A stretch of 64,000 bases of DNA from assembly GCA_017625935.1 (NCBI GenBank), contig JAGALA010000054.1, positions 71,655-135,654 of the forward strand. Reading direction: 5' to 3'. Source of the DNA: Clostridia bacterium (GTDB lineage Bacteria > Bacillota > Clostridia > Oscillospirales > CAG-272). The notes beneath the pieces were generated by a model that was given only the letters and a program-made list of their open reading frames with translations, made no database searches and had not been told where the DNA came from. The translations under genes and the position numbers were made by a program. Positions 21,249-47,697 of the stretch are shown piece after piece (position 1 is the stretch's first letter; each line of letters starts with the position of its first letter).

Positions 21249-22205
21249 TTATAAACCGAGCACAGCCGCGCCAATGATACCTGCATCATTGCCGAGCTCT
21301 GCAATCTTAATTTCGGTTTGCTTGCCCTTCGAATATGTTTCCTTGAAAACAGCTTCCTTAAGAGGAACAAGGAGGTAGTCCTTTTCGCCGCAAACGCCGC
21401 CTCCGATTGAGAGCACGTTTGGTTGGAAAATATTGATGATGTTAGCGATGCCGCAAGCAAGGTAGGAAATATATTCGTCAACGATTTCCTTACCAACCTC
21501 GTCACCCTGCTTCATTGCCGCAAATGCAACTCTTGCATTGCAGGCTTCGATGTTTCCGCCGATTAAATCCTCGATAATGGTTTTTCTGCCTTCTTTTCTT
21601 GATGCGAGCACGTGCTCCTTAGTCATATTTGTAAGACCTGTTGCGGAGCTGTAGGTTTCCCAACAGCCGCGTCTGCCACAGGAGCATTGCTTTCCGTCCT
21701 TTTCAATTACAATATGACCAAGCTCGGCACCTGCAAAGTTGAAGCCGGAATATACCTTTCCGTCAAGCACGATGCCGCCGCCAAGACCTGTGCCAAGGGT
21801 AATCATTACTGAAAACTTAGCACCTCTTGCAACACCTGCGATTGCCTCTGCCTTTGCTGCCGCGTTTGCATCATTTTCAATATATACCTTTTCGATTCCC
21901 GTGTATTCTCTTAGCAAGTCGGCAATAGGGAAGTTTTCAAACGGGAGATTGTTTGCGTATTCAACAACGCCTGTTTCGGAATTTGCGGTTCCCGGGGAGG
22001 CAATGCCCGCATATGCAATATCATCCAAGGTAAGACCGCAGTCCTCAACAAGTGAAAGACAAAGCTTTGCCATATCCTTGATGATTTCCTTGCCATCTCT
22101 GTGTGCAAGGGTTGGCACGCTCTTTTTCTTGATGATGTTGTAGCTTTCGTCAACAATACCTGCGGCGATGTTTGTGCCGCCGAGGTCGATACCTAAATAG
22201 TACAT
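21249..22205 (-). CDS. glcK: ROK-family glucokinase
   Basis: A 318-residue ROK sugar kinase. The phosphate loop GIDLGGTNIAAGIV is at 5-18, and the catalytic Asp is D112 in ENDANA. The sugar/zinc motif has E161, H164 and the cysteines of CSCGRRGCWE (C174, C176, C181). No DNA-binding domain precedes the kinase, so it is an enzyme and not a ROK repressor. Glucose is the likely substrate from length and motifs, though other hexoses are possible. It has a perfect sigma-A promoter and lies divergent from the large sugar transporter operon, which fits a role in phosphorylating imported sugars. Confidence 0.93.
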   Translation of the reverse strand: MYYLGIDLGGTNIAAGIVDESYNIIKKKSVPTLAHRDGKEIIKDMAKLCLSLVEDCGLTLDDIAYAGIASPGTANSETGVVEYANNLPFENFPIADLLREYTGIEKVYIENDANAAAKAEAIAGVARGAKFSVMITLGTGLGGGIVLDGKVYSGFNFAGAELGHIVIEKDGKQCSCGRRGCWETYSSATGLTNMTKEHVLASRKEGRKTIIEDLIGGNIEACNARVAFAAMKQGDEVGKEIVDEYISYLACGIANIINIFQPNVLSIGGGVCGEKDYLLVPLKEAVFKETYSKGKQTEIKIAELGNDAGIIGAAVLGL

Positions 22206-22237
22206 AATTATACCTTCCTTGAGTTTTTATTACTTCA

Positions 22238-22266
22238 ATTATAGACCGATTTTTTCCCAATGTCAA
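22238..22266 (-). promoter_or_regulatory. Consensus sigma-A promoter of the ROK kinase
   Basis: On the minus strand TTGACA (22266-22261), a 17-bp spacer, and TATAAT (22243-22238). All 12 consensus bases match. Confidence 0.93.
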
Positions 22267-22370
22267 CATTTTAGTTAGATAAAATGTAAAATTTTGAAAA
22301 AATGACAAAAAAACGGCGAAAAAGTCAAATTTGTGCACTATGTATATGTGACAAAATTATGTGCAGAAAA

Positions 22371-22387
22371 TTGTGCAAGTTGCACAA
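22371..22387. promoter_or_regulatory. Perfect 17-bp palindromic operator candidate
   Basis: TTGTGCAAGTTGCACAA is a perfect 8-bp inverted repeat around one G. Partial copies (TTGTGCA, ATGTGCA) lie just upstream. It sits between two divergent sugar-related promoters and looks like a LacI-type or similar dimer site. Confidence 0.5.
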
Positions 22388-22573
22388 TGTGTAGAAATTT
22401 TATAAATAAGGCACGCATAAATTATAGTTTCCTTTATTTTGTTGACTTTGTAGCACCAAAATACCGAAAAAAATTTTTTTGCTACCCTCACAAATGTACG
22501 CATTGACGGTAGGCAAAACGCAAGTTTTTCCACACCTGTGTCGGCAATTGGCTTTCCTTGGAAAAATGGTCTC

Positions 22574-22602
22574 TTGACTTTAATATATTCTTGTGCTACA
22601 AT
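22574..22602 (+). promoter_or_regulatory. Sigma-A promoter of the sugar transport operon
   Basis: TTGACT (22574-22579) and TACAAT (22597-22602) with a 17-bp spacer, about 90 bp before the first gene. Confidence 0.8.
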
Positions 22603-22690
22603 ATTATATACTAATATATACGCATATGTATATCCGTGCGGCTATGCGCTATGCCGCACCTGATTAGAACAAACATCATGGAGGTTTCTT

Positions 22691-25600
22691 ATGAAAGAAA
22701 AGGCAAAAAGACTACTTGCATTTTTCCTTTGCATGCTGATGCTGCTTGCGACGTTATCGTTCCCTGCATTCGCACAGGAAAACAGCGGTAGCTCGTCGGG
22801 AAGCACGTCTTCCGACAAAACGTCAATGTCCGACGTTAGTGCTATCCTCAATGCGCTTTCCTACGATGAGTATATGGAAAACGTTTTGAGCAAGTACCAA
22901 AACAAGGAGTTTGAAAAGGGACACGTTATCGAGGTTGATATCCTCGGCGGTGTCTTTACTGTGGGTGACACCACAACTGATTTAAGAGAATTTTATAAGG
23001 ACAGCACCAAGTGTGATGAGCCCTCACCCGATGGCAAAAACGATGGCGTTTTTCTCGGCTCGGAAGGTACAGCCACTTGGACATTTGTCGTTGACGACGA
23101 TTTCGCAGGTAACTATACCATTCAAATCGTTTACTGTCAGGCTGACGACCGTGTGGTTGACAAATCACAGGCAGATGACGACGACAAGGACGGTACAAGT
23201 AACGCAATTGAGCGTATTTTCTACTTGAACGGAAGCTTTCCTTTCGCGGAGGCACGTACGCTCGTGCTTAATAAGGTATGGGAATATGACTATTCCAAGA
23301 CCGAGGACGGAGAAAATACCTTTAAGAATGAAAAGGAAAACGGAAAGGGCGACGATATTCGTCCCGCGGTATACAAGGATCCTACTTGGGTACAGTATAC
23401 CATCAGTGATGCAAACGGATATTACGTAAATCCGTTTGAATTCTACTTCAAGCCGGGCGAAAACTCAATTTCACTTGAGGGTCAAAGAGAGGACTTGATT
23501 GTTCAGTCAATTAAGCTCGTTCCTTACGAAGCTCCTATTTCATATAAGGAATACATTGCCGAAATGGAAGCGCTTCACGGCAAGGTTTCCGAGAATAGAG
23601 TTGACTCCTCAGTTTTCCAAGAGGCAGAGGAGCCGCTTAACGTTTCCGCTATTACTATGTACCCCGTTTACGACAGAACATCGTCTATCACAAGCGGACT
23701 TACAGGTAAGCAAAGCCACAAGGCGGTAAAATACAATACCGCAGGTAAGGAGCAATGGCAAAACGTTGGCGAATGGATGAGCTACGATATTGAGGTTCCC
23801 GAATCCGGCTACTACTCAATAGCTGTTAGATACAAGCAGGCACTCCTTAGCGGTATGTACGTATCAAGAAAGCTCTACATTGACGACAAGGTTCCGTTTG
23901 CAGAGGCTGCAAACTGCCGTTTCCCACACTCAAACTCATGGCAGACATGCTTCCTTGGCGACGGTAAAACAGAGTTCGAATTCTACTTTGAGGCAGGAAA
24001 AACCTACAATATTAAGTTAGAAGCAACTCTTGGTGAAATGGGCACACAGATTAAGCAGGTTAGCGATTCGTTGGCAAATATCAACAGCTGCTATCTTGAA
24101 ATCTTAAAGCTCACAGGTACAGACCCTGACGCAAACCGTTCATACGGCTTTACAAGAGTTATGCCTGACGTTTTGAAGACCATGCTTTACGAAGCACAAA
24201 ACCTTGAAGCTGTTTATAATTACCTCGTTGCTGTAAACAAGGCACAGGACGGTGGTACGGGTGAGGGTGAAAAGACCGCAACAATCAAGCAGGTATATCA
24301 GCTTCTTGAAAAGATGGCAACAAACGAAAGCGAAATTCCCTCGAACCTTTCAACATTAAAATCACAAATCGGTTCACTCGGTACATGGATCAACAGCGCA
24401 AAGACCCAGCCGCTCCAGGTTGACTATTATCAGCTTCAATCTAAGGAAGAGGACTTACCTCGCGCCGATGCAAACTTTTTACAGGCATTTTGGTTTGAAA
24501 TAAGACTTTTCTTTGCTTCATTCACCGGCAATGAAAGCGAAAAGCCAACCAAAAATAAGAATAAAAAAGACCCCGAAACAATCGAGGTTTGGGTTACAAC
24601 AGGTCGTGACCAAGCACAAATCATAAGAAATCTCATTGAAAATGATTTTACTCCTGATAAACACACAATCTATGTAGATGGCAAGGCAGAAGAGGTTGAT
24701 ATAAACGTTGATATCAAGCTTATTGCGGGCGGTACGCTCTTACCGTCAATTATCGCAGGCGTTGGCCCTGAGCTTTCCTTGATGGAGGCAAGCTCAACGA
24801 TTATTGACTACGCGCTTCGTAATGCTATTAAGCCGCTCAATGATTACATAAACAACGATATCGAAAATTACGATCCCGCATCGGGCAAGGATAACATTCT
24901 CGAGGTGTTCCCTGATGCCGCATTCGAGCCGCTTACACTTTATAACTTCGGCTACGGTGACTCATACGGCTGGACAGATGAGGACGTCTATCTCTGGCGC
25001 GACGACGTTAAAAACGGCGTTGATGCAAACGGAGAGGGCACGGATGATGACCAAACCTACGGCTACGGCTGGATAAACAAGGACAAGGACGGTAAGGTTG
25101 AGTCAAGAGGAATCGAGCTTTATGCAATGCCCGATTCGCTTACCTTCTCAATGATGTTCTACCGCAAGGACGTTTTGACATCGCTTGAAATCGAGCTTCC
25201 CGAAACGTGGGACGATATGCTCGCTATTTTGCCTATTCTTCAATTTAATAATATGGAGATAGGTATTCAAAATGATATATACACCTTCACCTATCAAAAC
25301 GGATACGAGGCGTATGCAAACAACGGTATGACAATCAATTTCGGCTCAGCGGGCGTTCTTAACTCGTTTGAGCAAATGTGTAACTACTATACACAGTATT
25401 CACTTCCATACACTTATGATTTTGCAAACCGTTTCCGTACGGGTGAAATGCCAATCGGTATTTCGGCGTACACATCGTGTAACCAGCTTTCAGTCTTCGC
25501 TTCCGAGCTTTCGGGACTTTGGACATTCGTTCCACTTCCGGGTCAGGTTGTAAAGGATGAGGCAGGAAATACAATTTACAACGCTGACGGCTCACCGATG

Positions 25601-26077
25601 ATTAACAGAAACGCAATAGCAACGGTAACAGGTTGCGTTATGATCGATAACGGAAACGACAAGGTTCAGCAGGGACGCGACCTTCGCGCTTGGGAATTTA
25701 TCAGATGGTACACAGGCAGTGAATTCCAAGCTGACTATTCAAATGAAATAGTTTCTATTTTGGGTATTGCCGCAAGACCTGCAACGGCTAACAGAAAGGC
25801 ACTTGAGGATCTTCCTTGGACTGCTGAGGAAAAGAACAATATCAGCAAGCAGTTTGAAAGCTTGGTTGCCGTTCCTAACCATCCGGGTAGCTACTATCTT
25901 GCCCGTTACATAAACTTTGCATTCTTGGCAGCATACAACGAGGGTAAGGATGCATCCGATGCGCTTAACGAATATGTTGCTACAATCAATAAGGAGCTCG
26001 AAAGAAGAAGAAAAGAATTCGGCATGCTCACTTATGATGATTATATGTCGCTCAATCCCGATGGGATTTTGAACTGA
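22691..26077 (+). CDS. Extracellular solute-binding protein fused to N-terminal carbohydrate-binding modules
   Basis: A 1128-residue exported protein. The signal peptide (1-29) ends SFPAFAQE, a signal peptidase I site, and there is no lipobox cysteine. Two similar beta-rich domains follow (about 65-275 and 290-465), each with a FAEA..W element and, in the second, GEWMSYDIEVPESGYYSIAV, typical of CBM6/35-like modules. A helical linker (about 470-620) leads to a family-1 sugar-binding protein (about 625-1120, from IEVWVTTGRDQAQIIRN through the ETWDDMLAILPILQ hinge region). Classic binding proteins are about 430 residues. It should capture glycans or oligosaccharides for the permeases encoded next. 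How it stays at the cell surface is unclear. RBS GGAGG precedes the start. Confidence 0.85.
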   Translation: MKEKAKRLLAFFLCMLMLLATLSFPAFAQENSGSSSGSTSSDKTSMSDVSAILNALSYDEYMENVLSKYQNKEFEKGHVIEVDILGGVFTVGDTTTDLREFYKDSTKCDEPSPDGKNDGVFLGSEGTATWTFVVDDDFAGNYTIQIVYCQADDRVVDKSQADDDDKDGTSNAIERIFYLNGSFPFAEARTLVLNKVWEYDYSKTEDGENTFKNEKENGKGDDIRPAVYKDPTWVQYTISDANGYYVNPFEFYFKPGENSISLEGQREDLIVQSIKLVPYEAPISYKEYIAEMEALHGKVSENRVDSSVFQEAEEPLNVSAITMYPVYDRTSSITSGLTGKQSHKAVKYNTAGKEQWQNVGEWMSYDIEVPESGYYSIAVRYKQALLSGMYVSRKLYIDDKVPFAEAANCRFPHSNSWQTCFLGDGKTEFEFYFEAGKTYNIKLEATLGEMGTQIKQVSDSLANINSCYLEILKLTGTDPDANRSYGFTRVMPDVLKTMLYEAQNLEAVYNYLVAVNKAQDGGTGEGEKTATIKQVYQLLEKMATNESEIPSNLSTLKSQIGSLGTWINSAKTQPLQVDYYQLQSKEEDLPRADANFLQAFWFEIRLFFASFTGNESEKPTKNKNKKDPETIEVWVTTGRDQAQIIRNLIENDFTPDKHTIYVDGKAEEVDINVDIKLIAGGTLLPSIIAGVGPELSLMEASSTIIDYALRNAIKPLNDYINNDIENYDPASGKDNILEVFPDAAFEPLTLYNFGYGDSYGWTDEDVYLWRDDVKNGVDANGEGTDDDQTYGYGWINKDKDGKVESRGIELYAMPDSLTFSMMFYRKDVLTSLEIELPETWDDMLAILPILQFNNMEIGIQNDIYTFTYQNGYEAYANNGMTINFGSAGVLNSFEQMCNYYTQYSLPYTYDFANRFRTGEMPIGISAYTSCNQLSVFASELSGLWTFVPLPGQVVKDEAGNTIYNADGSPMINRNAIATVTGCVMIDNGNDKVQQGRDLRAWEFIRWYTGSEFQADYSNEIVSILGIAARPATANRKALEDLPWTAEEKNNISKQFESLVAVPNHPGSYYLARYINFAFLAAYNEGKDASDALNEYVATINKELERRRKEFGMLTYDDYMSLNPDGILN

Positions 26078-26108
26078 TTCTAAAATACTAATGAAGGAGA
26101 AAATGTAG

Positions 26109-27182
26109 ATGGAAAACCGTAATGAAAATTTACAAGACGTCGAAGCTGTTGAAATACAGAGCGGCGAAGCCGTAAATGCAGACGAGCAAATACATAGTGA
26201 CAGTATTTTAGAAGCAGAAGCACCTAAGAAAAAAGCGAAAAAGGTTAAAAAGAAGGCAACTGCAAGAAAGGATATGACAAGGGCACAGTGGACCTGGCAC
26301 GAAATTAAGCGTAACAAAATAGCTTATGTTATGGTTGCGCCGTTCTTCCTTGTATTCCTTCTCTTTACCGTATTCCCCGTTGGACTTTCACTTGTACTCA
26401 GCTTTACAAACTTTAACATGCTCGAATTCAAATGGGACATGTTCATAGAAATTAAGAACTATACACGTCTTTTCTTCGAGGATGATATATTCATTCTCGC
26501 TTGCAAGAACACTCTCGTGTTCGCAGCGGTAACAGGACCTGTTTCGTATGTTCTTTCATTCCTTGTTGCTTGGTTCATTAATGAGCTTTCACCGAGAATC
26601 AGAGCAATTGTTACACTTATTTTCTATGCACCATCAATCGCCGGCTCAGTTTACCTCATTTGGGGTACACTTTTCCACAATGACAGCCAGGGCTGGGTAA
26701 ACGGTATGCTTATTAAAATGAATATCATAGATACGCCTATTTTGTGGTTCTACGATGAAAAGTATGCTATGACGCTTTGTATCGTGGTTGCACTGTGGAT
26801 GTCACTCGGTACTGCGTTCCTTTCGTTTATCGCAGGTCTTCAAACGGTTGATAAGAGCTTGTTTGAGGCGGCAGCCGTTGACGGAATTAAAAACAGATGG
26901 CAGGAGCTATGGTATGTTACACTTCCAATGATGCGTCCGCAGCTTATGTTCGGTGCCGTAATGTCAATTACGGGTGCGTTCGGCTTCGGCGGCGTCGTTA
27001 CCAACCTTTGCGGATTCCCGTCAGTCAACTATTCGTGCCATACTATTATGCACTGCTTGGAGGACTACGGAAACCAGCGTTGGGAGGTTGGATATGCCTC
27101 CGCTATCGCGGTTGTGCTATTCTTAATAATGATCGGCGCTAATACGATCGTTAACAAAATGCTATCGAAGGTAGGACAATGA
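26109..27182 (+). CDS. Sugar ABC transporter permease (MalF/LplB type)
   Basis: A 357-residue permease with six hydrophobic segments. The EAA loop that contacts the ATPase is EAAAVDGIKNRWQELWYVTLP, followed by a Pro-rich turn. A 70-residue cytoplasmic extension precedes the first membrane segment: acidic first, then a lysine-rich stretch (KKKAKKVKKKA). It pairs with the permease that starts 2 nt after its stop. No ATP-binding subunit is encoded in this operon, so a shared MsmX-type ATPase from elsewhere is inferred. RBS GAAGGAG lies 11 nt before the chosen ATG. Confidence 0.93.
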   Translation: MENRNENLQDVEAVEIQSGEAVNADEQIHSDSILEAEAPKKKAKKVKKKATARKDMTRAQWTWHEIKRNKIAYVMVAPFFLVFLLFTVFPVGLSLVLSFTNFNMLEFKWDMFIEIKNYTRLFFEDDIFILACKNTLVFAAVTGPVSYVLSFLVAWFINELSPRIRAIVTLIFYAPSIAGSVYLIWGTLFHNDSQGWVNGMLIKMNIIDTPILWFYDEKYAMTLCIVVALWMSLGTAFLSFIAGLQTVDKSLFEAAAVDGIKNRWQELWYVTLPMMRPQLMFGAVMSITGAFGFGGVVTNLCGFPSVNYSCHTIMHCLEDYGNQRWEVGYASAIAVVLFLIMIGANTIVNKMLSKVGQ

Positions 27183-27183
27183 T

Positions 27184-28056
27184 ATGCAAAAAATGAGAGT
27201 TAGAAATCATCAGGTTGTCCTTAACCGTTCGGTAGGAGGAGACGCGGGAATATTTACCTTCCTTATTATAATGGGAGCGTTTATGTTCTTGCCAATGTTA
27301 TATGTAATAATGCAGTCCTTAAAGCCGCTTGACGAGCTTTGGATGTTCCCACCGAGATTTTACGTTGTTCATCCAACCTTCAAGAACTTCCAGGATTTGT
27401 TTACGCTGCTTAGCGACTCTTGGGTTCCGTTCTCAAGATACATATTCAACACAGTATTTATCACGTTTATGGGTACGTTTGGTAACTTGCTCCTGTCGTC
27501 CTTGGCGGCATATGCAATTTCAAAAATCCCATTCCCCGGCAGAAAGGGAATGTTCTGGCTCATTCAGCGTTCACTTATGTTTACATCAACAGTAACAGCG
27601 ATTGCCAACTTCATCACCCTTTCAACATTAGGACTTATGGATAACCCGTTTGCACTTATTATTCCTGCATGGGGCTCATCTATGGGACTTTACTTAATGA
27701 AGCAGTTTATGGACTCATCAATTTCAGACTCCGTGCTTGAAAGTGCGCGTCTTGACGGATGCAGTGAGTTCAGAACGTTCTTGACAATAGCGATGCCAAT
27801 GGTTAAGCCCGCTTGGCTTACACTTATCATTTATTCATTCCAGGGTCTTTGGAACACAGGTGCCTCAGCGTACATTTACAGTGAGCAATTAAAGACACTT
27901 AACTATGCGATAGGTCAAATTACCGCAGGCGGTATTGCCCGTGCGGGTGCATCTGCTGCTTCAAGCGTTGTTATGATGATAGTTCCTATCGGCGTATTCG
28001 TTATTTCACAAAGTAACATTATTGAAACAATGGCATCAAGTGGTATGAAGGATTAA
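27184..28056 (+). CDS. Carbohydrate ABC transporter permease (MalG/LplC type)
   Basis: A 290-residue permease with six membrane segments and the EAA loop ESARLDGCSEFRTFLTIAMP. It is the usual second subunit to the gene just upstream, from which it is separated by 1 nt. The pair should form the membrane channel for the fused binding protein. The next gene starts 11 nt downstream, so it lies inside the operon. Confidence 0.94.
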   Translation: MQKMRVRNHQVVLNRSVGGDAGIFTFLIIMGAFMFLPMLYVIMQSLKPLDELWMFPPRFYVVHPTFKNFQDLFTLLSDSWVPFSRYIFNTVFITFMGTFGNLLLSSLAAYAISKIPFPGRKGMFWLIQRSLMFTSTVTAIANFITLSTLGLMDNPFALIIPAWGSSMGLYLMKQFMDSSISDSVLESARLDGCSEFRTFLTIAMPMVKPAWLTLIIYSFQGLWNTGASAYIYSEQLKTLNYAIGQITAGGIARAGASAASSVVMMIVPIGVFVISQSNIIETMASSGMKD

Positions 28057-28066
28057 GGAGGGCAGT

Positions 28067-30325
28067 ATGAAAAAATTAGCAAGAATAATTGCATTTACGT
28101 TTGTCCTCGCCTTCGTTTTCTCCACTTGCGCATTTGCAGTAACACCGTATGACACGTACACATACTCAATTGACGGCGAGGTTCTTAAATCACCCGACGC
28201 GTACGTAGCCGACGGCGTTGCTCCAATCGACTCAGCAACAATTGGTCTTGACAACTTAGATGGCAAAAAGCTTAACAACCCAACAGATATCGAAACAGAT
28301 AGCGAGGGTAACATCTATATCACAGACCAAGGCGAAAACAGAATCATAGTTCTTAACAGATACTATGAATGGCAGGCAACAATTGAAACCTTCGTAAACA
28401 GCGACGGCGTTGAGGACTCATTTAACACCCCAACAAGCACGTTTGCAGTTAGCGACGGCGACTATAAGGGCTTATACGTTTGCGATAAGCTCAACAAGAG
28501 AATTATCAGATTCTCAATAGATGATTATTCATACGAGCATACGTACAAGGAGCCGCAAATCAACTTTGCTGACGACAAGGGCTCATATACCCCTGTTAGC
28601 TGTGTAGTTGACAAGCACGGCAGAATGTACGTTGCTTCGGACGGAACAACAGAGGGTATTATAGTTCTTACCTCAGGCGGTGAGTTTATCAACTTCATCG
28701 GCGCGCCAAAGGTTAGCGTTTCAGCGCTTCAGGCGGTGCTCCAAACGGTAAACCCATTCTCAAAGAAGGAATTTACAAACGTTCCGTCAACCTACACAAA
28801 CCTCGAGCTTGACAATACCTTCGGCGATTTCGTTTACGGTACTGTAAAGATTCTCGAAGATGACAAGCCACAGCAGGAGGCACAAATCACATCCAAGCAG
28901 CCTGACTATTCGCCTGTAAAGCTCCTTAACGCGGGCGGTACGGACATTATGCAGCGTACAGGCTTCTTCTCACCTGCAGGTGAGGTTGCGGTTAAGACAA
29001 TCAAGGTTAAAACCTCAATGAACAAGGATGCGTACAACGGTGTTTCAACAGTTCTTGACGTATCAAGCGGACCTGACGGCGTTTGGTCAATTATCGACAG
29101 AGAGCGCTCGAAGATCTACACCTATGACCGTTCAGGTAACCTCCTTTACATCTTCGGTGATAAGGGTGAGCAATTCGGTCAGATCTCACAGGCACAGGCA
29201 ATTACATATCAAACCTATGAGGTAGAGAAGGACGTTTTGGACGAAAACGGTAACGTTATCGGCACTGAACTTGTTCCCGTTACAAAAATCATCGTTCTTG
29301 ATATCAAAAACCTTTCATTTACAGTATATAGACAAACAGACTACGCTTCAGTTCTTTCGACAGCTATAAAGCTTCAAAACGCGGGCGAGTTTGACCTTGC
29401 CAAGGATGCTTGGGAAGAGGTTTTGGCAAGAAACAACAACTTCGACACGGCTTACGTTGAAATGGGTAAGGTTATTTACCGTAATGCAAACGGCGACCGC
29501 GAACAGCTCGACCAAGCACTCAAATACTTCAAAAACGCTTACGACACAGAAAACTTTGCAACGGTATTCAAGGCAATCCGTGCGCAATTTATGGAAAAAT
29601 GGTTCATTTTGATGGTTATTGCTATCGTTGCGGTGCTGTTCGGTGTTGTTAAGGTATTCGGCTACGCAGGAAAGGTTAACAAGGCAGCTGCTACCAAGGG
29701 CGGCAAGCGTACCCTCAAGGAGGAGTTAACCTACGGCTTCCATTTGATGTTCCACCCGTTCGACGGCTATTGGGACCTCAAGCACGAGAAGCGTGGTTCA
29801 ATGCGTGCATCAATTATCTTCATTATTATAACAGTAGTAGCGTTCTACTACTCAGGCATCGGTAAGGGATATTATTACAATCCAAAGGGCTCAACGGCAA
29901 CAATCTTCAGCCAGGCGGCAATGGTACTCATTCCATTCTTCCTCTTTGTTGTATCCAACTGGTGCTTCACAACGCTCTTTGACGGTGAGGGTAGCTTTAA
30001 GGATATCTTCATTTCAACCGCATATGCGCTATACCCATTACCGATTCTCGTAATTGTTTCAACAGCACTCACAAACGTATTGGTTGGTACTGAATCACAA
30101 ATTCCATCGCTCATCTTAACAGTAGCGTACATTTATATGGCATTCCTGATTATCATAGGTATGCAGGTTACACACGACTATTCAACAGGAAAGAATATAG
30201 TTACAATTGTTATGACGCTTGTCGGCATGGTAGTAATTATGTTCATCGCAGTATTGTTTATTTCACTTATCACAAAGATGTCGGGCTTCGTTTCGACGAT
30301 TATGAGTGAAATAAGCTACAGGTAG
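28067..30325 (+). CDS. Secreted propeller/TPR protein with C-terminal Yip1 membrane domain
   Basis: A 752-residue protein. A signal peptide (1-26, ending CAFAVTP) is followed by a beta-propeller of NHL-like repeats (about 55-430, for example NPTDIETDSEGNIYITDQGE and SCVVDKHGRMYVASDG). TPR-like helices follow (about 430-505, LKYFKNAYDTENFATVFKA), then a membrane segment near 513-535. A Yip1-type domain with five hydrophobic segments fills about 560-750. The sensor-like outer part and Yip1 part together suggest a membrane-anchored accessory of the transporter. The function is unknown. Its place between two permease pairs indicates a dedicated role in the uptake complex. Confidence 0.78.
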   Translation: MKKLARIIAFTFVLAFVFSTCAFAVTPYDTYTYSIDGEVLKSPDAYVADGVAPIDSATIGLDNLDGKKLNNPTDIETDSEGNIYITDQGENRIIVLNRYYEWQATIETFVNSDGVEDSFNTPTSTFAVSDGDYKGLYVCDKLNKRIIRFSIDDYSYEHTYKEPQINFADDKGSYTPVSCVVDKHGRMYVASDGTTEGIIVLTSGGEFINFIGAPKVSVSALQAVLQTVNPFSKKEFTNVPSTYTNLELDNTFGDFVYGTVKILEDDKPQQEAQITSKQPDYSPVKLLNAGGTDIMQRTGFFSPAGEVAVKTIKVKTSMNKDAYNGVSTVLDVSSGPDGVWSIIDRERSKIYTYDRSGNLLYIFGDKGEQFGQISQAQAITYQTYEVEKDVLDENGNVIGTELVPVTKIIVLDIKNLSFTVYRQTDYASVLSTAIKLQNAGEFDLAKDAWEEVLARNNNFDTAYVEMGKVIYRNANGDREQLDQALKYFKNAYDTENFATVFKAIRAQFMEKWFILMVIAIVAVLFGVVKVFGYAGKVNKAAATKGGKRTLKEELTYGFHLMFHPFDGYWDLKHEKRGSMRASIIFIIITVVAFYYSGIGKGYYYNPKGSTATIFSQAAMVLIPFFLFVVSNWCFTTLFDGEGSFKDIFISTAYALYPLPILVIVSTALTNVLVGTESQIPSLILTVAYIYMAFLIIIGMQVTHDYSTGKNIVTIVMTLVGMVVIMFIAVLFISLITKMSGFVSTIMSEISYR

Positions 30326-30339
30326 GGAGGACCGAGATT

Positions 30340-33198
30340 ATGAAAAAAAGAATAATAGCGGTTATCCTTGCCGCATTAACAGCACTTTCCGTGTTGGTTT
30401 TGCCGCTTAGCGCATCAGCCGCAAGCGTTGACCATATGAACGACGTGTTTACTTCCAAGGAAGAGCGCCTCGCTTCTATGGACTTTGTTGTGACAAGCGA
30501 TGATCCAAACAAGGAAGGCACGGGCGATGGCTCGTTAGAGCTCTACGTTGATTACGTATCGGGCGAGTTCGCAATCAGAAATAAGGTGACGGGAGAAATT
30601 ACTCTTTCCAACCCACACACCGTTTCTTCATCATTCACAAACGCATCAGATAAGGGCATTCGTCTTTCACAGCTTTACATCAACTTTTTCACGATTTCAA
30701 GCGGTAAGGACTCAATGCACACTCTTTACAGCTATAACGACTGCTTCGCATATAACCAAGGTAGCATCACAGCGATGGAGAACGGCATCAAGGTTGACTA
30801 CTCACTCGGTGAGGAAAGCAGAGAATTTGCAGTTCCTGTTAAAATCAGCATTGAAAAGTTCATAAATGCATTGGTTGCAGGCGGTATGACCGAGAAAAAG
30901 GCTAAGGAGTTCATCGAAAACAACTACGATGTTTATGACCCCGATCAAAAGTATATTGAGAACTTCCTTCTCACGCTTGACCCAACCATGAGAGATGAAA
31001 TGATTGCAAAGTATCCGCTTTGCGCAGAGGTTCCGTTTGTTTATTTGCCAAAGGGCAAGTTTGATAACAACGCTACCAAGAAAATCCTTGAGGAGCGCCT
31101 TATAAAGGCAAACCCCGATTACTTTAGGGTTGCAGGCGAGGGCGAGGAGGAAACTCAGCTTCAAAAGGATATGAAGGAGCTTTGGACCGAGGAGGACTCA
31201 GAGCTTTATAAAGAGACTCAAAAGCCAAACTTCAAGCTCAGCGTTAAATATGAGCTTACAAATGAAGGACTTGTGGCTACTGTTGACGCAGGCTCAGTTC
31301 AGTATGACAAAGAAAAATACTGTCTTTCAAGCATTTCCGTCCTTCCTTATTTTGCAGCAACCTCTCTTAAAGAGGACAGCTACGACAAGGGCTACATCTT
31401 TATGCCTGACGGTAGCGGTACAATTATAAGATTTGAGGACCTTATTGCAAAGCAAAAGTACGGTAAGCTCTCAGGCTCACTTTACGGTCCTGACTACGCT
31501 TACTATCAAATCAGCGAGAAAAACGTTGAGCAATACACAATGCCTGTTTTCGGCTTTGTAAATTTAAGTGAAAACAACGGAACAGGTTATTTTGCAATAA
31601 TCGAGGATGGCGATGCTCTTGCGACTATCACCGCAAGCACAGAGCAAAACTTCTATGCAAGCGCTTATGCATCCTTTAAGTATGCTGAATACGATACGTA
31701 CGATATCGATGCATCACTTACAGGAAACGCAACAAGCACAACCGCAATTACAGTAATTTCAAAGGACACCTACGACGGTGAATATAAGGTAAATTACAAA
31801 TTCTTAATGGCTGATGAAACAGCTGAAGCATATGGAATTGAGGGCACGTATGACACGTCATATCTCGGCATGGCAAAGCTATACAGAGAATACCTTGATA
31901 AAAACGAAGTAATCAGCAAGATTGAAGATCCGGATGAAAACGTAAAGCTTTTCCTTGAAATGTTCGGTTCAATCAAGGTTAAGGAGCAAATTTTTACCTT
32001 CCCTGTGACAATTGACAAGGAGCTTACAACATTCCAAGATATTATCAATATTCAAGCAGAGCTTTCAGAGCTTGGAATCAGCAATACCTCGTACATTTTG
32101 AAGGGCTTCTATAATGGCGGTCTTTCGGCGTCTTATCCGTCAAAGATAAAGTGGCAAAGAGTTCTTGGCGGAAAGAAGGGACTTACAGGTCTTCTTAATG
32201 ATGCTGAAAATAACGGCTACGATGTTGCAATAGACGTAGATTTTTCATACGCATATGCAACAAAGAGCTTCAGCGGCTTTAAGACAAAGCGCGATGCGGT
32301 AAAGACTCTTGACAACAGATATACAACAAAGCGTGCATATTATGCGGCAACACAAACCTTTGAAAGAACGAGCGGCGTTGCGGTTTCAACTGCTTCATTT
32401 ATCAATTTGTTTGATAGCTTTATGAAGTCTGTGGAAAAATATAACCTTACACTCTTGGCAACAAGAACGCTCGGCTCAGACTTAAACTCTGACTTCGACA
32501 AGAAGGATTACTACACAAGAGAGGATTCTAAGGACAATATAGTAAATCTTCTTAAGCATATGACAAATAACGGCGGTAACAGCTTCAAGCTTATTACCGA
32601 CGTTGGAAACGCTTATGCAATTCCGTATTCATCGGGCATATTGTCAGCACCTCTTGACAGCAGTAAGTACATAACAGCAAGCGAAACAATTCCATTCTAC
32701 GGTATGGTTTACCACGGCTCGGTTGAGTTTGCGGGAACTGCACTTAATATGGAGGGTGATGAGGACTTTATGTTCCTTCGCGCACTTGAAAACGGCGCCG
32801 CACTTTACTACACACTTGCAAAGGAAAACGTAGAAGCGCTTAAGTTTGACAAAGAATACAGCAAATATTATTCCGTAAGCTATGACTTCCTTAAGGATTC
32901 TATAGTTTCAACCTATAAGGAATATAACGATCTTATGAAGGATAAGCAGGATAAGTACATCGTTGACCATAAGTTCTTGAACGATGAGGACGATGGCGTA
33001 TCCGTTACGTTCAAAAATGGCACAAAGGTAAACAATTCACTCGTTGTTCTTGTTATGTACGAGGGCGGTGAAGGCTTCATTCTCAACTATAACAGTGAAG
33101 ATGTTGTTCTTACCTTGACTGATGAGAACGGAGCAGAAACAACACATATTATCGGTGCTATTAACTATTTAGAGTACAGTGAAAAGGAGGGCGCGTAA
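30340..33198 (+). CDS. DUF5696-family secreted protein
   Basis: A 952-residue exported protein with a signal peptide (1-29, ending SASAASVD). It matches the DUF5696 type seen with sugar ABC operons in Clostridia and Paenibacillus, based on size, position and blocks such as FMPDGSGTIIRFED near 365 and the middle region with repeated Y/F-rich strands. The middle could be a glycosidase-like barrel, but I see no catalytic motif I can defend. It has no membrane anchor or lipobox. The next gene begins at the base after its stop (TAAATG), so translation of the second permease pair is coupled to it. Confidence 0.7.
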   Translation: MKKRIIAVILAALTALSVLVLPLSASAASVDHMNDVFTSKEERLASMDFVVTSDDPNKEGTGDGSLELYVDYVSGEFAIRNKVTGEITLSNPHTVSSSFTNASDKGIRLSQLYINFFTISSGKDSMHTLYSYNDCFAYNQGSITAMENGIKVDYSLGEESREFAVPVKISIEKFINALVAGGMTEKKAKEFIENNYDVYDPDQKYIENFLLTLDPTMRDEMIAKYPLCAEVPFVYLPKGKFDNNATKKILEERLIKANPDYFRVAGEGEEETQLQKDMKELWTEEDSELYKETQKPNFKLSVKYELTNEGLVATVDAGSVQYDKEKYCLSSISVLPYFAATSLKEDSYDKGYIFMPDGSGTIIRFEDLIAKQKYGKLSGSLYGPDYAYYQISEKNVEQYTMPVFGFVNLSENNGTGYFAIIEDGDALATITASTEQNFYASAYASFKYAEYDTYDIDASLTGNATSTTAITVISKDTYDGEYKVNYKFLMADETAEAYGIEGTYDTSYLGMAKLYREYLDKNEVISKIEDPDENVKLFLEMFGSIKVKEQIFTFPVTIDKELTTFQDIINIQAELSELGISNTSYILKGFYNGGLSASYPSKIKWQRVLGGKKGLTGLLNDAENNGYDVAIDVDFSYAYATKSFSGFKTKRDAVKTLDNRYTTKRAYYAATQTFERTSGVAVSTASFINLFDSFMKSVEKYNLTLLATRTLGSDLNSDFDKKDYYTREDSKDNIVNLLKHMTNNGGNSFKLITDVGNAYAIPYSSGILSAPLDSSKYITASETIPFYGMVYHGSVEFAGTALNMEGDEDFMFLRALENGAALYYTLAKENVEALKFDKEYSKYYSVSYDFLKDSIVSTYKEYNDLMKDKQDKYIVDHKFLNDEDDGVSVTFKNGTKVNNSLVVLVMYEGGEGFILNYNSEDVVLTLTDENGAETTHIIGAINYLEYSEKEGA

Positions 33199-34329
33199 AT
33201 GAGTTTTGACACAAAAAACAAAAGAAGCTTTAAGGCGACCTCCCAAATCGTCGGTGAAGAGCAAAGCTACCTTGCTGAGCCAATTGCCCTTGCGGGTAGC
33301 GAAAAAATCGTTCCCTCAGAGGTAGTTGTCGAAGCGCCGACAGTGAGCGCACCTGAGGTAGCAGTAAATGAACCGGCTCCTTACATTCCCCGTAAGAAGA
33401 AAAAATTCAAGCTTAGCTTGACGGGCAAAAAAGCTCTTTCGGGATGGCTATTCTGCTTGCCGTTCGTTATCGGTATTCTTGGAATTTACCTTCCAATAGT
33501 TCTTAAATCAATTGAGGTTGGCTTCCACGGCTCAATGGGTAACAACCCTGCATTCACACTTGACGCATACAAGTTCGTATTTATTGAAGACGGTCAGTTC
33601 ACAACAACGGTTGTCGATGCTATTAAGGATTTGATTATTCAGATCCCGGCAATAGTTATCTTCTCGCTCTTTATGGCTATTATCCTTAACCAAAAGATGA
33701 CGGGCAGAACCTTCTTCCGTGCTGTTTTCTTCCTTCCTGTTATTTTGTCAACAGGTATTATCGATGCAATCGATACAAGAATTTCAGCAGGTGCAATAGT
33801 TGAGGGTGGCGCAATGGATGACAACACAGGCGGTGAGACAGCAGGACTTATGTCCTCGCTCGATATGGAAATGCTTTTATCAAGCGTTAATCTACGGTTG
33901 ACGCTTGGAAAAACAACCATTGACCTTGTTGAAATTGTAACAACACTCGTAAACAATATTTTTGAAATTGTTAGCCGTTCAGGCGTACAAATGCTTATCT
34001 TCTTATCAGGTCTTCAGTCGATTTCACCGTCGATTTATGAGTCCTGTCAGATGGAGGGTGCAACAGCTTGGGAAACCTTCTGGAAAATTACTCTACCAAT
34101 GATTAGCCCAATGATTCTCGTTAACGCGATTTATACGGTAGTTGACCTCTTTACCGCTGCGGATAACCGTGTAATGCAAGGTCTTGCAGGATACGGCGGT
34201 ATGTTCGGCGATAAGAACCCGGGTAACTTCTCTGCGGGAATTTGGGTATATACGGCACTCGTTCTTGTGGTAATTGTAGTCGTTGCACTACTTCTCAGAA
34301 CCGTCGTATTCTATCAGAGAAGAGATTAA
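33199..34329 (+). CDS. Sugar ABC transporter permease, second pair, with an insertion
   Basis: A 376-residue permease. A 70-residue polar N-terminal extension precedes the first membrane segment near 80. The EAA loop is ESCQMEGATAWETFWKITLP. Between membrane segments, around 190-250, there is an unusual 60-residue polar insertion (containing GGAMDDNTGGETAGLMSSLD), which is absent from ordinary MalF-type permeases. The gene starts directly at the stop of the DUF5696 gene and is followed after 12 nt by its partner. It is the third permease of the operon. Confidence 0.9.
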   Translation: MSFDTKNKRSFKATSQIVGEEQSYLAEPIALAGSEKIVPSEVVVEAPTVSAPEVAVNEPAPYIPRKKKKFKLSLTGKKALSGWLFCLPFVIGILGIYLPIVLKSIEVGFHGSMGNNPAFTLDAYKFVFIEDGQFTTTVVDAIKDLIIQIPAIVIFSLFMAIILNQKMTGRTFFRAVFFLPVILSTGIIDAIDTRISAGAIVEGGAMDDNTGGETAGLMSSLDMEMLLSSVNLRLTLGKTTIDLVEIVTTLVNNIFEIVSRSGVQMLIFLSGLQSISPSIYESCQMEGATAWETFWKITLPMISPMILVNAIYTVVDLFTAADNRVMQGLAGYGGMFGDKNPGNFSAGIWVYTALVLVVIVVVALLLRTVVFYQRRD

Positions 34330-34341
34330 GGAGGTGCTGAA

Positions 34342-35409
34342 ATGGATACTGTAAAAGTAAAAAGAGAAACCAAAAACAAAATCAAGGTTGATTTTGAAAG
34401 AGCACCTTTGTGGGTTCGCCTCAAGCAAAAATTCTTCTCATTTAATTTCTTGAAGAATGTAGTTTTTAAGATTTTTAGACTCATTCTGTTAATCGGTATT
34501 ACCTTTGTTATATTATATCCGTATATTTCAAAGATACTTAAATCCATAATGTCTGTCAGCGATATGAAGGATGCAACGGTTGTCCTTATTTCCAAGGCGC
34601 CGACGCTTAACCAATATTGGTACATTTTAACCGAAAACGGTTATTTGAAGGCGTTTATAACCACGTTCCTTGTGTCGTTCTCGATTGCTCTTATTCAGAC
34701 TCTTATCTGCGCACTTGTTGCATACGGCCTTGCTAAGTTCAAATTCAAGGGCAACGCAATTGTCTTTGCATTTGTTATCGCAACGCTTATGATTCCGCAG
34801 GAAACACTTAAGAACTCAATGACTGCATTCTTTAGACAAATCACAATGATTGAAACAACCTTGAACCCGGTAAGCTTGGTTCTCGAGCTTATCCAAAAGT
34901 GGACGGGCGTATTTGAAAACGGAGTTGGCTTCACAAACAGCTTAATTCCATTGTACGTTCTTTCCGTGTTCGGTCTCGGCTTTAAGAATGGACTTTTCAT
35001 CTTTATGCTAAGACAGTTCTTCAAGGGCGTTCCCGACGAGCTTGAGGAGTCCGCATTCGTTGACGGCTCAAGCACGTTAAGAACCTTCTTTAGTATTATT
35101 CTTCCAATTTCCGTGCCGATGCTCATCACCGTATTTATCTTTGCTTTCTCATGGCAATGGACAGATGACTTCTACACGAAGATATTCTTCAACGATGCAT
35201 CCAAGTTCTCATTTATGAGCACGATAGACGGTGTTCCTGCTACAATTCGTGAGATGATGAAGTACGAAACGTCATCAATTCAGCAGGCATACAGCGCAAC
35301 GCTTTCGGGTACTGCATCAATTCTTATAGCGCTTCCGCTTATAATTATGTACGTATTCCTGCAAAGACGTATCGTTGAGGGCGTTGAGCGTAGCGGTATC
35401 GTTGGATAA
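34342..35409 (+). CDS. Carbohydrate ABC transporter permease, second pair
   Basis: A 355-residue MalG-type permease with the EAA loop ESAFVDGSSTLRTFFSIILP and six membrane segments after a 45-residue basic N-terminal extension. A polar segment near 160-200 is longer than in typical members. RBS AAGGAGG precedes the start. It is the last gene of the operon. Two complete permease pairs with one binding protein imply either two channels for one substrate class or an unusual four-permease complex. Confidence 0.92.
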   Translation: MDTVKVKRETKNKIKVDFERAPLWVRLKQKFFSFNFLKNVVFKIFRLILLIGITFVILYPYISKILKSIMSVSDMKDATVVLISKAPTLNQYWYILTENGYLKAFITTFLVSFSIALIQTLICALVAYGLAKFKFKGNAIVFAFVIATLMIPQETLKNSMTAFFRQITMIETTLNPVSLVLELIQKWTGVFENGVGFTNSLIPLYVLSVFGLGFKNGLFIFMLRQFFKGVPDELEESAFVDGSSTLRTFFSIILPISVPMLITVFIFAFSWQWTDDFYTKIFFNDASKFSFMSTIDGVPATIREMMKYETSSIQQAYSATLSGTASILIALPLIIMYVFLQRRIVEGVERSGIVG

Positions 35410-41962: not shown

Positions 41963-44122
41963 ATGAAAAAACACATTTTAGCAATCATTCTTTGTGTGCT
42001 TTGTGCTTCATTGGTGTTCGTTCTCGCTTCATGCGGCGATACCAACACTAACACAGATAGCGGTTCGGGTGAATGTACTGAGCATAGCTTTGGTGATTGG
42101 ACAACAGAAACATACGCATCCTGCACATCAGCAGGCCTTAAGGTAAGAGTATGTACAAAGTGCTCTTTTGAGGAAGAAGAGGAAATTCCTGCAGGACACA
42201 AGTTTGGCGAGTGGAAAACCGTTACTGAGCTTTCTTGTGAGCAAGACGGAGTAGAGGAAAGAATTTGCTCGGCTTGTGACTTTGTTGAAGAGAAAACCAC
42301 AGAGGCAACTGGTCACGCATGGGGTGACTGGGCAGTTACTACTCCCGGCGACTGCACAAATAAAGGTGAAGAAACAAGAGTGTGTGATAATTGCGGCGCC
42401 GATGAAACACGTGAAATAGCGGCAGACGGTCACAATTGGACTGATTGGGGCATCGGCTGGGACAACGAGGAATTTGCAGAGGCCCCAACCTGTACAGAAG
42501 AGGGCTATCTTGGTAGAGTTTGCTTGGACTGCGGTGATGAAGAAAGAGATCCAATACCTGTAAAAGGCCACGAATGGGGTGATTGGAACGTAGTTGGCTC
42601 TTGTGCTGACGGTGCAACAAAGACAAGATCTTGCACTGTTTGTCAAGAGTCTGAAACAGAAACAACTGAGCCGGGTGAGCACGCAAACATCGTTTTCGAG
42701 GGCGCAAAGGAAGCTACACGTGAAGAGGATGGCTCAACAGGTACAAAGAAATGCTTGGCTTGCGGCGAAACGCTTGAGTATGCTAAGATAATTAGAATTG
42801 TTAATGTTGCTTTGGGCTCAACTACAACGTGTGGATCACCTGCGGGTCAGTTCTGGGCTTCAACGGATGCATACACTCAAAAGATGGTTGATGGAAACAG
42901 GGAAACAGGCGTATGCAGCAATCCTAAGGTCACAAGCATTTCTGATACAATCACATTTGTATCTCCTACTAATATTAATAAGGTTATTCTTGTTGTTAAC
43001 GGCAAGGGCTCAACAACAGATTCTAAGAGCTACGATAAAATTACAAACAACGACTATACAATTTCATTTACAATTTACAATGCAGATGGAAAGGCGATCT
43101 ACATATCAGAGAGTTACCAAACTGTTGATCAAATAGAAATTGAGGTTGACGTAGTATTGCCCGAGGGCGAATTAGCTTCAAGTATGGTAGTTAAACGCTT
43201 TAAGCAAGCATATATCTGTGAAAATTATCTTTGGGAGGTTGAGGTTCTCAACACACTTTATCTCTCACCTTGTGAAGCCAACGGACATACATGGGGAGAA
43301 ACAACTACAGTTGAACCAACATGCAGTAAGGAAGCGCTCACAGACGGATATACAACAAAAACATGCACAACCTGCGGTGAAGTTGACAAACAGGTTCTTG
43401 TTGCAACACATAAATGGACAGAGTGGAATGTTACAAACTTCTCCTGTATTGATGGCGGAACAATGACAAGAAGCTGTACATCTTGTGGCAAGGAGGAAAG
43501 CCAAACGACAGAAGGTGGAGAGCACGGTGAGATAGAGCTTAAAGGAGCAAAAGAGGCAACTCTTGAAGCAGAGGGCTATACAGGTGACAAGGTATGTAAG
43601 GTTTGCGGTCAAACAACAGAAACAGGCGTAGTAATTCCTAAGCATGTAAATGTAGCACTTGGTGCAACCGTTACTACTACAGCTACACATTGGCACGTTA
43701 CCGGACAAAATAATGGTAATGGCTTGAAGCCACTCGTAGATGGAGACCCCGCAACAGGTGTTGCAAGTGACCCAAGCAATCCAACTAACATTTTAACGAT
43801 AGAATTAGCAGAAGCAAATTCTGATATATTCAAATTCATTTTCGTTGTAAATGGATCAGGTTATTGTCCAGGACCATATATGAATCTTGAAAATACTAAC
43901 AATGCTTATGAGCTTTCTTTCGTTCTTTATGATGAAAATGGAGAAGTTATTTACACATCCGAAAAATATCAAACTCTTGATAAAAAGCAAATAGAGGTTG
44001 ATGTTGATCTTGGCGGCAAAGCTGTTAAGAAGATAGAGGTTAAGCGCTTTAAACAGGCATATACTTCCGAAATTGCTATTTGGGAAGTAATGGCGATTGC
44101 CAACGGAAAAGTAGCGGAATAA
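41963..44122 (+). CDS. Lipoprotein with nine Cys-rich repeats and two discoidin-like domains
   Basis: A 719-residue surface lipoprotein. The signal peptide ends in the lipobox LASC with C24 as the lipid anchor. Six repeats of about 38 residues follow (34-275), each of the form GHxWGDW...C...G...R.C..C, which pairs His and Cys residues like a small metal-binding or disulphide module. A discoidin/F5-8C-like domain follows (about 279-430), then three more repeats (436-560) and a second discoidin-like domain (about 561-715). The last part of the first block and its domain are clearly duplicated in the second. Discoidin-like domains usually bind glycans. Substrate and function are unknown. Transcribed alone. 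Confidence 0.8.
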   Translation: MKKHILAIILCVLCASLVFVLASCGDTNTNTDSGSGECTEHSFGDWTTETYASCTSAGLKVRVCTKCSFEEEEEIPAGHKFGEWKTVTELSCEQDGVEERICSACDFVEEKTTEATGHAWGDWAVTTPGDCTNKGEETRVCDNCGADETREIAADGHNWTDWGIGWDNEEFAEAPTCTEEGYLGRVCLDCGDEERDPIPVKGHEWGDWNVVGSCADGATKTRSCTVCQESETETTEPGEHANIVFEGAKEATREEDGSTGTKKCLACGETLEYAKIIRIVNVALGSTTTCGSPAGQFWASTDAYTQKMVDGNRETGVCSNPKVTSISDTITFVSPTNINKVILVVNGKGSTTDSKSYDKITNNDYTISFTIYNADGKAIYISESYQTVDQIEIEVDVVLPEGELASSMVVKRFKQAYICENYLWEVEVLNTLYLSPCEANGHTWGETTTVEPTCSKEALTDGYTTKTCTTCGEVDKQVLVATHKWTEWNVTNFSCIDGGTMTRSCTSCGKEESQTTEGGEHGEIELKGAKEATLEAEGYTGDKVCKVCGQTTETGVVIPKHVNVALGATVTTTATHWHVTGQNNGNGLKPLVDGDPATGVASDPSNPTNILTIELAEANSDIFKFIFVVNGSGYCPGPYMNLENTNNAYELSFVLYDENGEVIYTSEKYQTLDKKQIEVDVDLGGKAVKKIEVKRFKQAYTSEIAIWEVMAIANGKVAE

Positions 44123-47500: not shown

Positions 47501-47697
47501 CCGTTGATGATCAAATCACCGTCGGAATACTTGTCAAGACCGCCGATGATGTTAAGCAAGGTCGTTTTTCCACAGCCGCTTTGACCGAGGATTGAAACAA
47601 ACTCGCTTTTTCTAAACTCTAAGGAAACACCCTTAAGAGCATGCACGGTCGAGTCACCGCTTACATAGTCCTTTTTGATGTTAGTTAGCTTCAGCAT
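44542..47697 (-). CDS. ABC transporter, fused ATPase and FtsX/MacB-type permease
   Basis: A 1051-residue MacB-like protein. The ATPase (about 1-225) has Walker A GQSGCGKT (38-45), signature MSGGQMQR and Walker [14 protein letters not shown] lysine-rich linker leads to a first membrane segment (about 305-325). A 550-residue extracytoplasmic region follows, then three membrane segments of the FtsX domain at the end (about 910-1051, with [18 protein letters not shown]). These mechanotransmission pumps export lipoproteins, peptides or antibiotics, or signal cell-wall stress. The extracellular part is about 150-300 residues longer than in MacB. It is a single-gene transcript with a consensus promoter. 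Confidence 0.92.

Follow-up and report, generated by a model that had tools for sequence, protein, structure and literature searches.

In the 64,000-nucleotide stretch of Clostridia bacterium DNA analysed here (the window), ORF calling placed seven abutting, same-strand open reading frames that together span exactly 22691-35409. These genes and the intergenic region upstream of them are listed below.

22206..22690, + strand: divergent intergenic region, 485 bp, with promoter-like sites (consensus match only)
22691..26077, + strand: large binding protein, 1128 aa (Pfam SBP_bac_8, 1.3e-8)
26109..27182, + strand: permease P1, MalF/UgpA type, 357 aa (Pfam BPD_transp_1; EAA motif EAAAVDGIKNRWQELWYVTLP; single clade in the permease tree)
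27184..28056, + strand: permease P2, MalG/UgpE type, 290 aa (Pfam BPD_transp_1; UgpE-like, 1.2e-19; single clade)
28067..30325, + strand: propeller/Yip1 protein, here called X, 752 aa (Pfam Yip1 1e-14, SGL 5e-7)
30340..33198, + strand: DUF5696 protein, exported, 952 aa (PF18952, E 7e-137)
33199..34329, + strand: permease P3, MalF/UgpA type, 376 aa (Pfam BPD_transp_1; EAA loop present; outer segment extended and variable)
34342..35409, + strand: permease P4, MalG/UgpE type, 355 aa (Pfam BPD_transp_1; EAA loop present; outer segment extended and variable)

The gaps between the seven genes are 31, 1, 10, 14, 0, and 12 bp, and each gene is preceded by a purine-rich ribosome-binding site. The Pfam order (SBP_bac_8, BPD_transp_1, BPD_transp_1, SGL/NHL propeller with Yip1, DUF5696, BPD_transp_1, BPD_transp_1) agrees with the operon proposed in an earlier sequence-only reading of this DNA, in which a solute-binding protein (SBP) and two permeases are followed by a propeller/Yip1 protein, a DUF5696 protein, and two more permeases. 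The putative control region of the operon, at 22206..22690, includes a TTGACT-17-TACAAT site with an extended -10 at 22574-22602, a consensus match only. The operon is flanked by recG, a ROK kinase gene, asd, an aspartokinase gene, hom, and thrC. A Pfam search of the operon and its immediate flanks found no ATPase gene, as that reading had stated. None of the adjoining genes encodes a polysaccharide-degrading enzyme, a xylan CAZyme, a signalling kinase, or a regulator.

The large binding protein is made up of a signal sequence, two tandem CBM35-like modules (~65-480), a helical stalk (~490-620), and a family-1 solute-binding core (~630-1110). A profile of its family hits cycloisomaltooligosaccharide glucanotransferase 5x7g in the CBM region of that enzyme (E 2e-9), and two tandem modules can be seen in the alignment, which has invariant columns; this bears out the suggested fusion of a binding protein to CBMs. 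Against the PDB, the top match of the same profile is Lin1841 (5ysb; E 1e-33), the Listeria 1,2-beta-oligoglucan-binding protein and the closest solved structure to the core; this match of a whole-family profile holds at the family level only, and a substrate assignment based on it was dropped. No lipobox is present in the signal sequence, and by a crude pattern one occurs in 6 of 63 relatives, although in only 8 of 32 small SBPs as well. Anchoring of the SBP as a lipoprotein is usual in Gram-positive CUT1 importers, although not strictly defining.

Both permease pairs are of the ordinary CUT1 kind, MalF/MalG-type, and their EAA loops are intact, the ITFP endings in P3 having been confirmed by eye; the proposal that the system is unlike ordinary sugar ABC importers is not supported in this respect. 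P1, P2, P3, and P4 form one clade each in a permease tree, which was used for these clades only and not for the outgroup ORFs of the window's own genome. The core segment of P3 has 148 residues in the window and 125-153 across P3 proteins, compared to 126-128 in P1, and that of P4 has 136 residues in the window and 108-136 across P4 proteins, compared to 103-104 in P2. Nor is the missing ATPase unusual among Firmicute CUT1 importers that share one of the MsmX type (PMC7658222, PMC5730181), and the window's own genome carries one intact, free-standing MsmX-like ATPase of 370 aa away from permeases as well as a fragment of a second at a contig edge. Such ATPases, encoded elsewhere, would pair with the permeases of the operon; in Paenibacillus cellulosilyticus, a UgpC-type ATPase lies directly upstream of it. 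The operon shares with these importers a family-1 SBP and two MetI-like EAA permeases of MalF/MalG type per importer, with a candidate remote ATPase, but differs from them in having two permease pairs per SBP, a CBM-bearing SBP without a lipobox, and two conserved accessory proteins. As many loci outside the window's family have extra small SBPs beside the module, the two pairs look like ordinary importers to which accessories have been added.

The accessory protein X consists of a signal peptide, an NHL beta-propeller, TPR, a TM segment, and a five-TM Yip1 domain, and its profile matches NHL propellers and TPR in the PDB. The suggestion of three extracellular proteins was only partly right because X, with about seven hydrophobic segments, is a membrane protein. 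Most lineages have propeller and Yip1 in a single fused gene, whereas in 26 of 83 loci they are encoded by two neighbouring genes, a hint of joint function.

The second accessory protein, DUF5696, is a full-length GH129 homologue with neither of the two GH129 catalytic aspartates. An hhalign comparison of the two families (probability 99.3%, E 4e-20) extends over 466 columns and covers the N-terminal, barrel, and C-terminal regions, and the DUF5696 profile matches 5opq/8rzg (E 5e-13) and NagBb 5wzn (E 1e-8) in the PDB. NagBb is a GH129 alpha-N-acetylgalactosaminidase, and 5opq is the 3,6-anhydro-D-galactosidase DagB. At the positions of the NagBb catalytic residues Asp330 and Asp435, the window protein has S596 and A707. 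By the NagBb chain count, D330 sits in GYDN and the aspartate of HLDGW is 322; an acid (D/E) is found at D330 in 11/49, at D435 in 2/49, and at D322 in 2/49 of the DUF5696 family, so that none of these positions is conserved as acidic. Because both catalytic aspartates are absent, DUF5696 probably binds glycan and does not cut it. The family alignment has no invariant acidic residue in the barrel, yet D718 (84%) and E817 (96%) are conserved, and given these two residues a relocated active site is conceivable; DagB itself differs from NagBb at one of two catalytic residues (PMC5698469). An AlphaFold2 model of DUF5696 from three sequences reached a pLDDT of 34. The GH129 profile PF11308 gave no match in 199 genomes, which reflects its limited sensitivity here because true GH129 genes surfaced through weak DUF5696 matches. 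Some weak DUF5696 matches, in ORFs of 560-680 aa, fall on alpha-amylases and were set aside as remote barrel matches only.

A co-occurrence survey showed the linkage to be conserved, and the scattering of accessory genes that the sequence-only reading had named as its refutation is clearly not seen. The X gene lies directly upstream of DUF5696 in 81 of 83 loci, P3-P4 lie directly downstream in 80 of 83, and SBP-P1-P2 lie directly upstream in 60 of the 83, the linkage holding over about 16 Firmicute families, patchy and multi-copy lineages included. Among 398 genomes of the phylum, 37 have DUF5696 and all 37 also hold the propeller/Yip1 protein (39 in total) and the large CBM-type SBP (40 in total); the hypergeometric log10 p of about -48 to -49 ignores phylogeny and overstates independence, since DUF5696-positive genomes cluster by genus and family. 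In the window's family, DUF5696 is present in 113 of 117 near-complete genomes, usually as a single copy. By distance correlation the genes fall into two modules, one of SBP-P1-P2 (0.84-0.88) and one of X-DUF5696-P3-P4 (0.80-0.86), with values of 0.60-0.70 between SBP/P1/P2 and DUF5696/P3/P4 and intermediate ones for X (0.74-0.79). A scan of genome contigs with one protein as query returned two loci only, and viral contigs scanned with single-protein queries gave no match.

The gene order has already been seen in Caldicellulosiruptor bescii, in the xylan-induced xylan degradation locus xloEFG-X-GH129-axoFGE (Athe_0174-0185; PMC8579813), which runs SBP-permease-permease-X-GH129/DUF5696-permease-permease and was annotated as two CUT1 transporters, XloEFG and AxoFGE, with the DUF5696 counterpart annotated GH129. 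No ATPase is listed in that operon, and the shared ATPase, MsmK, is encoded elsewhere; a second SBP (AxoE), seven CAZymes, and predicted XynR/AraR control are given for the C. bescii locus, and all of these are absent from the surroundings of the operon in the window. The suggestion of a system not formally described is thus not supported as it stands, since this layout had been noticed in part; the passages of PMC8579813 consulted contain no discussion of X and GH129, and our literature search found no study of X or DUF5696 and no paper naming DUF5696. The window's lineage differs from C. bescii by having no adjoining second SBP or polysaccharide-degrading enzyme. Small SBPs adjoin 34 of 60 loci outside the window's family compared to 0 of 22 within it, and none of these 22 has a second SBP at the AxoE position after the second permease pair. 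The window's own genome contains three further SBP_bac_1 matches only, each next to its own permeases; this genome is 95% complete, and a second SBP could therefore sit in an assembly gap. In many other lineages, the module adjoins glycoside hydrolases (GH26, 43, 42, 10, 31, 28, and 5) and AraC/LacI regulators, as in Gram-positive PULs (gpPULs; PMC5320581), which unite a polysaccharide-degrading enzyme, a transporter, and a regulator at one locus and from which the window operon differs in having no such enzyme or regulator alongside.

On balance, we think it fairly probable that the seven genes specify a conserved system for oligosaccharide uptake, made of two co-inherited modules and powered by MsmX-like ATPases elsewhere, with X as a scaffold and DUF5696 as a non-cutting binder. 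Module 1 (SBP-P1-P2) would be a CUT1-type ABC importer, and the two CBMs on the SBP stalk suggest that a polymer or surface glycan may be held while the binding core takes an oligosaccharide. Module 2 (X-DUF5696-P3-P4) would add a second permease pair, a membrane scaffold, and an exported GH129-like protein. In it, X, whose extracellular NHL propeller and TPR are joined to the Yip1 membrane domain, may tether exported parts at the membrane next to the permeases, and DUF5696, having lost the GH129 catalytic aspartates, most likely binds glycan uncut; we infer both roles. Free-standing MsmX-like ATPases would power both pairs. With one SBP for two permease pairs in the window's family, P3-P4 may either share that SBP or receive their ligand from DUF5696. 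Elsewhere, in many lineages, the module is accompanied by small extra SBPs and by glycoside hydrolases that would determine the substrate, which is xylan in C. bescii. The surface glycan-capture machine of the sequence-only reading may describe this arrangement. Tentatively, and as a possibility only, DUF5696 could be a retired glycosidase turned receptor, held by X and delivering ligand to P3-P4, so that the seven proteins would form one polymer-capturing surface complex feeding two channels, a functional Gram-positive counterpart to SusCD-type capture. Gram-positive gut bacteria lack the SusCD machinery with which Bacteroidetes import complex glycans, and to our knowledge little is known about the way in which they retain long glycans on their surface. 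The X and DUF5696 module, spread over about 16 Firmicute families and part of the core genome of one gut family, suggests that a class of components has been missed and raises the question of whether a catalytically dead glycosidase may serve as an import receptor.

A reading that we consider unlikely is that DUF5696 is catalytically active and founds a new glycoside hydrolase family related to GH129, trimming captured glycan at the surface, with one product imported through P1-P2 and the other through P3-P4. The full-length homology, the GH129 annotation of the C. bescii copy (PMC8579813), the partly different catalytic residues of the related DagB (PMC5698469), and the conservation of D718 and E817 are consistent with such an enzyme; the scarcity of acids at the three NagBb positions and the lack of an invariant barrel acid argue against it, as does the presence of the module beside glycoside hydrolases for many different linkages, unlike a linkage-specific enzyme.

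In another reading, which we judge quite improbable, the locus is a simple tandem of two ordinary CUT1 importers for different oligosaccharides in which X and DUF5696 are passengers of operon inheritance. In its favour, the C. bescii authors treated their locus as two transporters (PMC8579813), and many loci have a second SBP; against it, X and DUF5696 are found together and beside P3-P4 at nearly all loci of about 16 families, patchy and multi-copy lineages included, and they co-vary most with P3-P4. Very improbable, in our view, is a sensing system in which the propeller/Yip1 protein and P3-P4 signal glycan capture to a two-component system, like transporter-like sensors elsewhere. A histidine kinase and a response regulator do adjoin the Butyrivibrio operon and the outer segments of P3 and P4 are variable, but the window operon has no such neighbours and P3 and P4 retain the ATPase-docking EAA loops.

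The operon's seven genes lie on a single strand; each start codon is preceded by a purine-rich site, and the intergenic gaps are 31, 1, 10, 14, 0, and 12 bp. The gene order and domains of the sequence-only reading were recovered from the open reading frames and their Pfam matches. Both flanks are housekeeping, recG and a sugar kinase upstream and aspartate-semialdehyde dehydrogenase, aspartokinase, homoserine dehydrogenase, and threonine synthase downstream. The contig measures 147 kb in an assembly of 2.08 Mb that is 95% complete.

Features in and around the operon (window coordinates)
12689-14428: melibiase/GH31-like barrel protein, 579 aa; possible glycosidase, same genome region
21249-22205, divergent from the operon: ROK-family sugar kinase, glucokinase-like, just under the NCBIfam cut-off
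22691-35409, + strand: seven genes, in order SBP_bac_8 (large binding protein, SBP); BPD_transp_1 twice (permeases P1, P2); SGL/NHL with Yip1 (propeller/Yip1 protein); DUF5696 (E 7e-137); BPD_transp_1 twice (permeases P3, P4)
41963-44122: 719-aa protein downstream of threonine synthase, no Pfam match above cut-off
44542-47697: 1051-aa single chain with N-terminal ABC ATPase and C-terminal FtsX permease domain

Conserved linkage was confirmed at 83 DUF5696 loci from relatives and from across the phylum, each examined within a neighbourhood of at most 20 kb. The propeller/Yip1 gene lies immediately 5′ of DUF5696 in 81 loci and P3-P4 immediately 3′ in 80, while SBP-P1-P2 directly precedes this block in 60; in others it follows P4 or is encoded at a separate site in the genome. 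Since propeller and Yip1 domain are two neighbouring genes in 26 of the 83 loci, the window's propeller/Yip1 protein is a fusion of partners. The co-occurrence survey proposed by the earlier reading gave the same picture: among 398 phylum genomes, DUF5696 was found in 37, the propeller/Yip1 protein in 39, and the large SBP with carbohydrate-binding modules (CBMs) in 40, and all 37 DUF5696 genomes, from 20 genera and about 16 families, had the other two (hypergeometric log10 p about -48, a value that ignores shared ancestry). DUF5696 is a core gene in the window's own family, present in 113 of 117 near-complete genomes and mostly single copy; outside it the gene is patchy and sometimes multi-copy, up to six per genome. 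Six matches occur in a 1.8-Mb genome of the window's order (G067, L061-L065). Two human faecal 'Bacteriophage sp.' records, MT835587.1 (L158) and MT835600.1 (L159), carry the whole module as eight genes with propeller and Yip1 separate, and look like bacterial contigs deposited as phage.

Pairwise distances across 31 loci correlated at 0.84-0.88 among SBP, P1, and P2 and at 0.80-0.86 among propeller/Yip1, DUF5696, P3, and P4. For SBP/P1/P2 against DUF5696/P3/P4 the correlation fell to 0.60-0.70, and propeller/Yip1 held an intermediate position at 0.74-0.79. Each of the four permeases forms a single clade; P1 and P3 belong to the MalF/UgpA type, the other two to the MalG/UgpE type. The distance from the first core helix to the ATPase-docking EAA loop, which all four retain, is near constant in P1 (126-128) and P2 (103-104) and widely variable in P3 (125-153) and P4 (108-136); by the usual topology of the family, the extra residues would lie in an outer segment. 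None of the seven genes encodes an ATPase. The window's genome has four MalK-type OB-domain genes, one encoding a 370-aa MsmX-like ATPase beside an oxidoreductase, one a fragment at a contig edge, and, of the remaining two, one adjoining its own permease. In Paenibacillus cellulosilyticus, a UgpC-type ATPase immediately precedes the equivalent operon, and in Bacillus, ATPases common to several sugar importers are established (PMC7658222, PMC5730181). The suggestion that the system is unlike ordinary importers holds for its unusual and constant accessory proteins, but not for its permeases and ATPase logic.

In the large SBP, a signal sequence is followed by two tandem CBM35-like modules, then by a helical stalk and finally by the binding core. 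Its family profile matches Lin1841 (5ysb, E 1e-33) over the core, and its CBM part matches the CBMs of 5x7g (E 2e-9). The window's protein has no lipobox, and by a crude pattern 6 of 63 relatives have one versus 8 of 32 small SBPs, a contrast that is weak because the small proteins also score so low. A family of small SBPs (SBP_bac_1 match in 27 of 34 scanned) flanks none of the 22 loci in the window's family, against 34 of the 60 in other families. Butyrivibrio fibrisolvens and P. cellulosilyticus likewise have small SBPs a short way downstream. The window's genome yielded just three further SBP_bac_1 proteins, each adjoining its own permeases, so in this lineage P3-P4 has no visible partner besides the large SBP or DUF5696.

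The DUF5696 family profile reaches the GH129-type structures DagB (5opq, 8rzg; E 5e-13) and NagBb (5wzn; E 1e-8), and bona fide GH129 genes from relatives, which match NagBb by phmmer at E 7e-120, align with DUF5696 over 466 columns (hhalign 99.3%, E 4e-20). The true GH129 alpha-N-acetylgalactosaminidase homologues L117-L120 of related genomes go uncalled by the Pfam GH129 model at its cut-off. In the alignment, NagBb D330, the second of its catalytic residues, corresponds to S596 of the window's protein, with Asp or Glu in 11 of 49 family members. D322, the Asp replaced in NagBb mutant entry 5wzq, corresponds to K588 (acidic in 2 of 49), and D435, one of the two catalytic residues (PMC5698469), to A707 (also 2 of 49). 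The family has thus retained the fold, whereas the catalytic acids known from GH129 have been lost. D718 and E817 are conserved, so the protein may have a different active site. Structure prediction from few sequences gave a pLDDT of 34. In the window's family, DUF5696 proteins at L051, L053, L054, and L055 span 1263-2061 aa, the added parts giving no convincing Pfam match.

Elsewhere, the module neighbours GH26, GH43, GH42, GH10, GH31, GH28, and GH5 genes and AraC/LacI regulators, and so serves many glycans across lineages. No glycoside hydrolase or regulator of these kinds neighbours the window's operon to indicate its substrate.

The claim that the system is not formally described stands in part: a literature search found no paper mentioning DUF5696, and one joining Yip1 with sugar import gave nothing relevant, but the available portion of PMC8579813 gives the Caldicellulosiruptor bescii locus for xylan degradation as xloEFG-X-GH129-axoFGE-xynF... 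What is new is the reading of DUF5696 as a putative pseudo-GH129, the co-inheritance as two modules, and, in one gut family, the core status and single binding protein. For the C. bescii locus, that portion describes two CUT1 transporters and induction on xylan, with XynR and AraR as its predicted regulators, and leaves X and GH129 undiscussed. Two sampled loci, L105 and L109, read SBP-P1-P2-X-DUF5696-P3-P4-SBP and then encode GH43 proteins that carry CBMs, and are probably the xylan locus itself; at L106, in the same genus, GH26 takes the place of the GH43 proteins.
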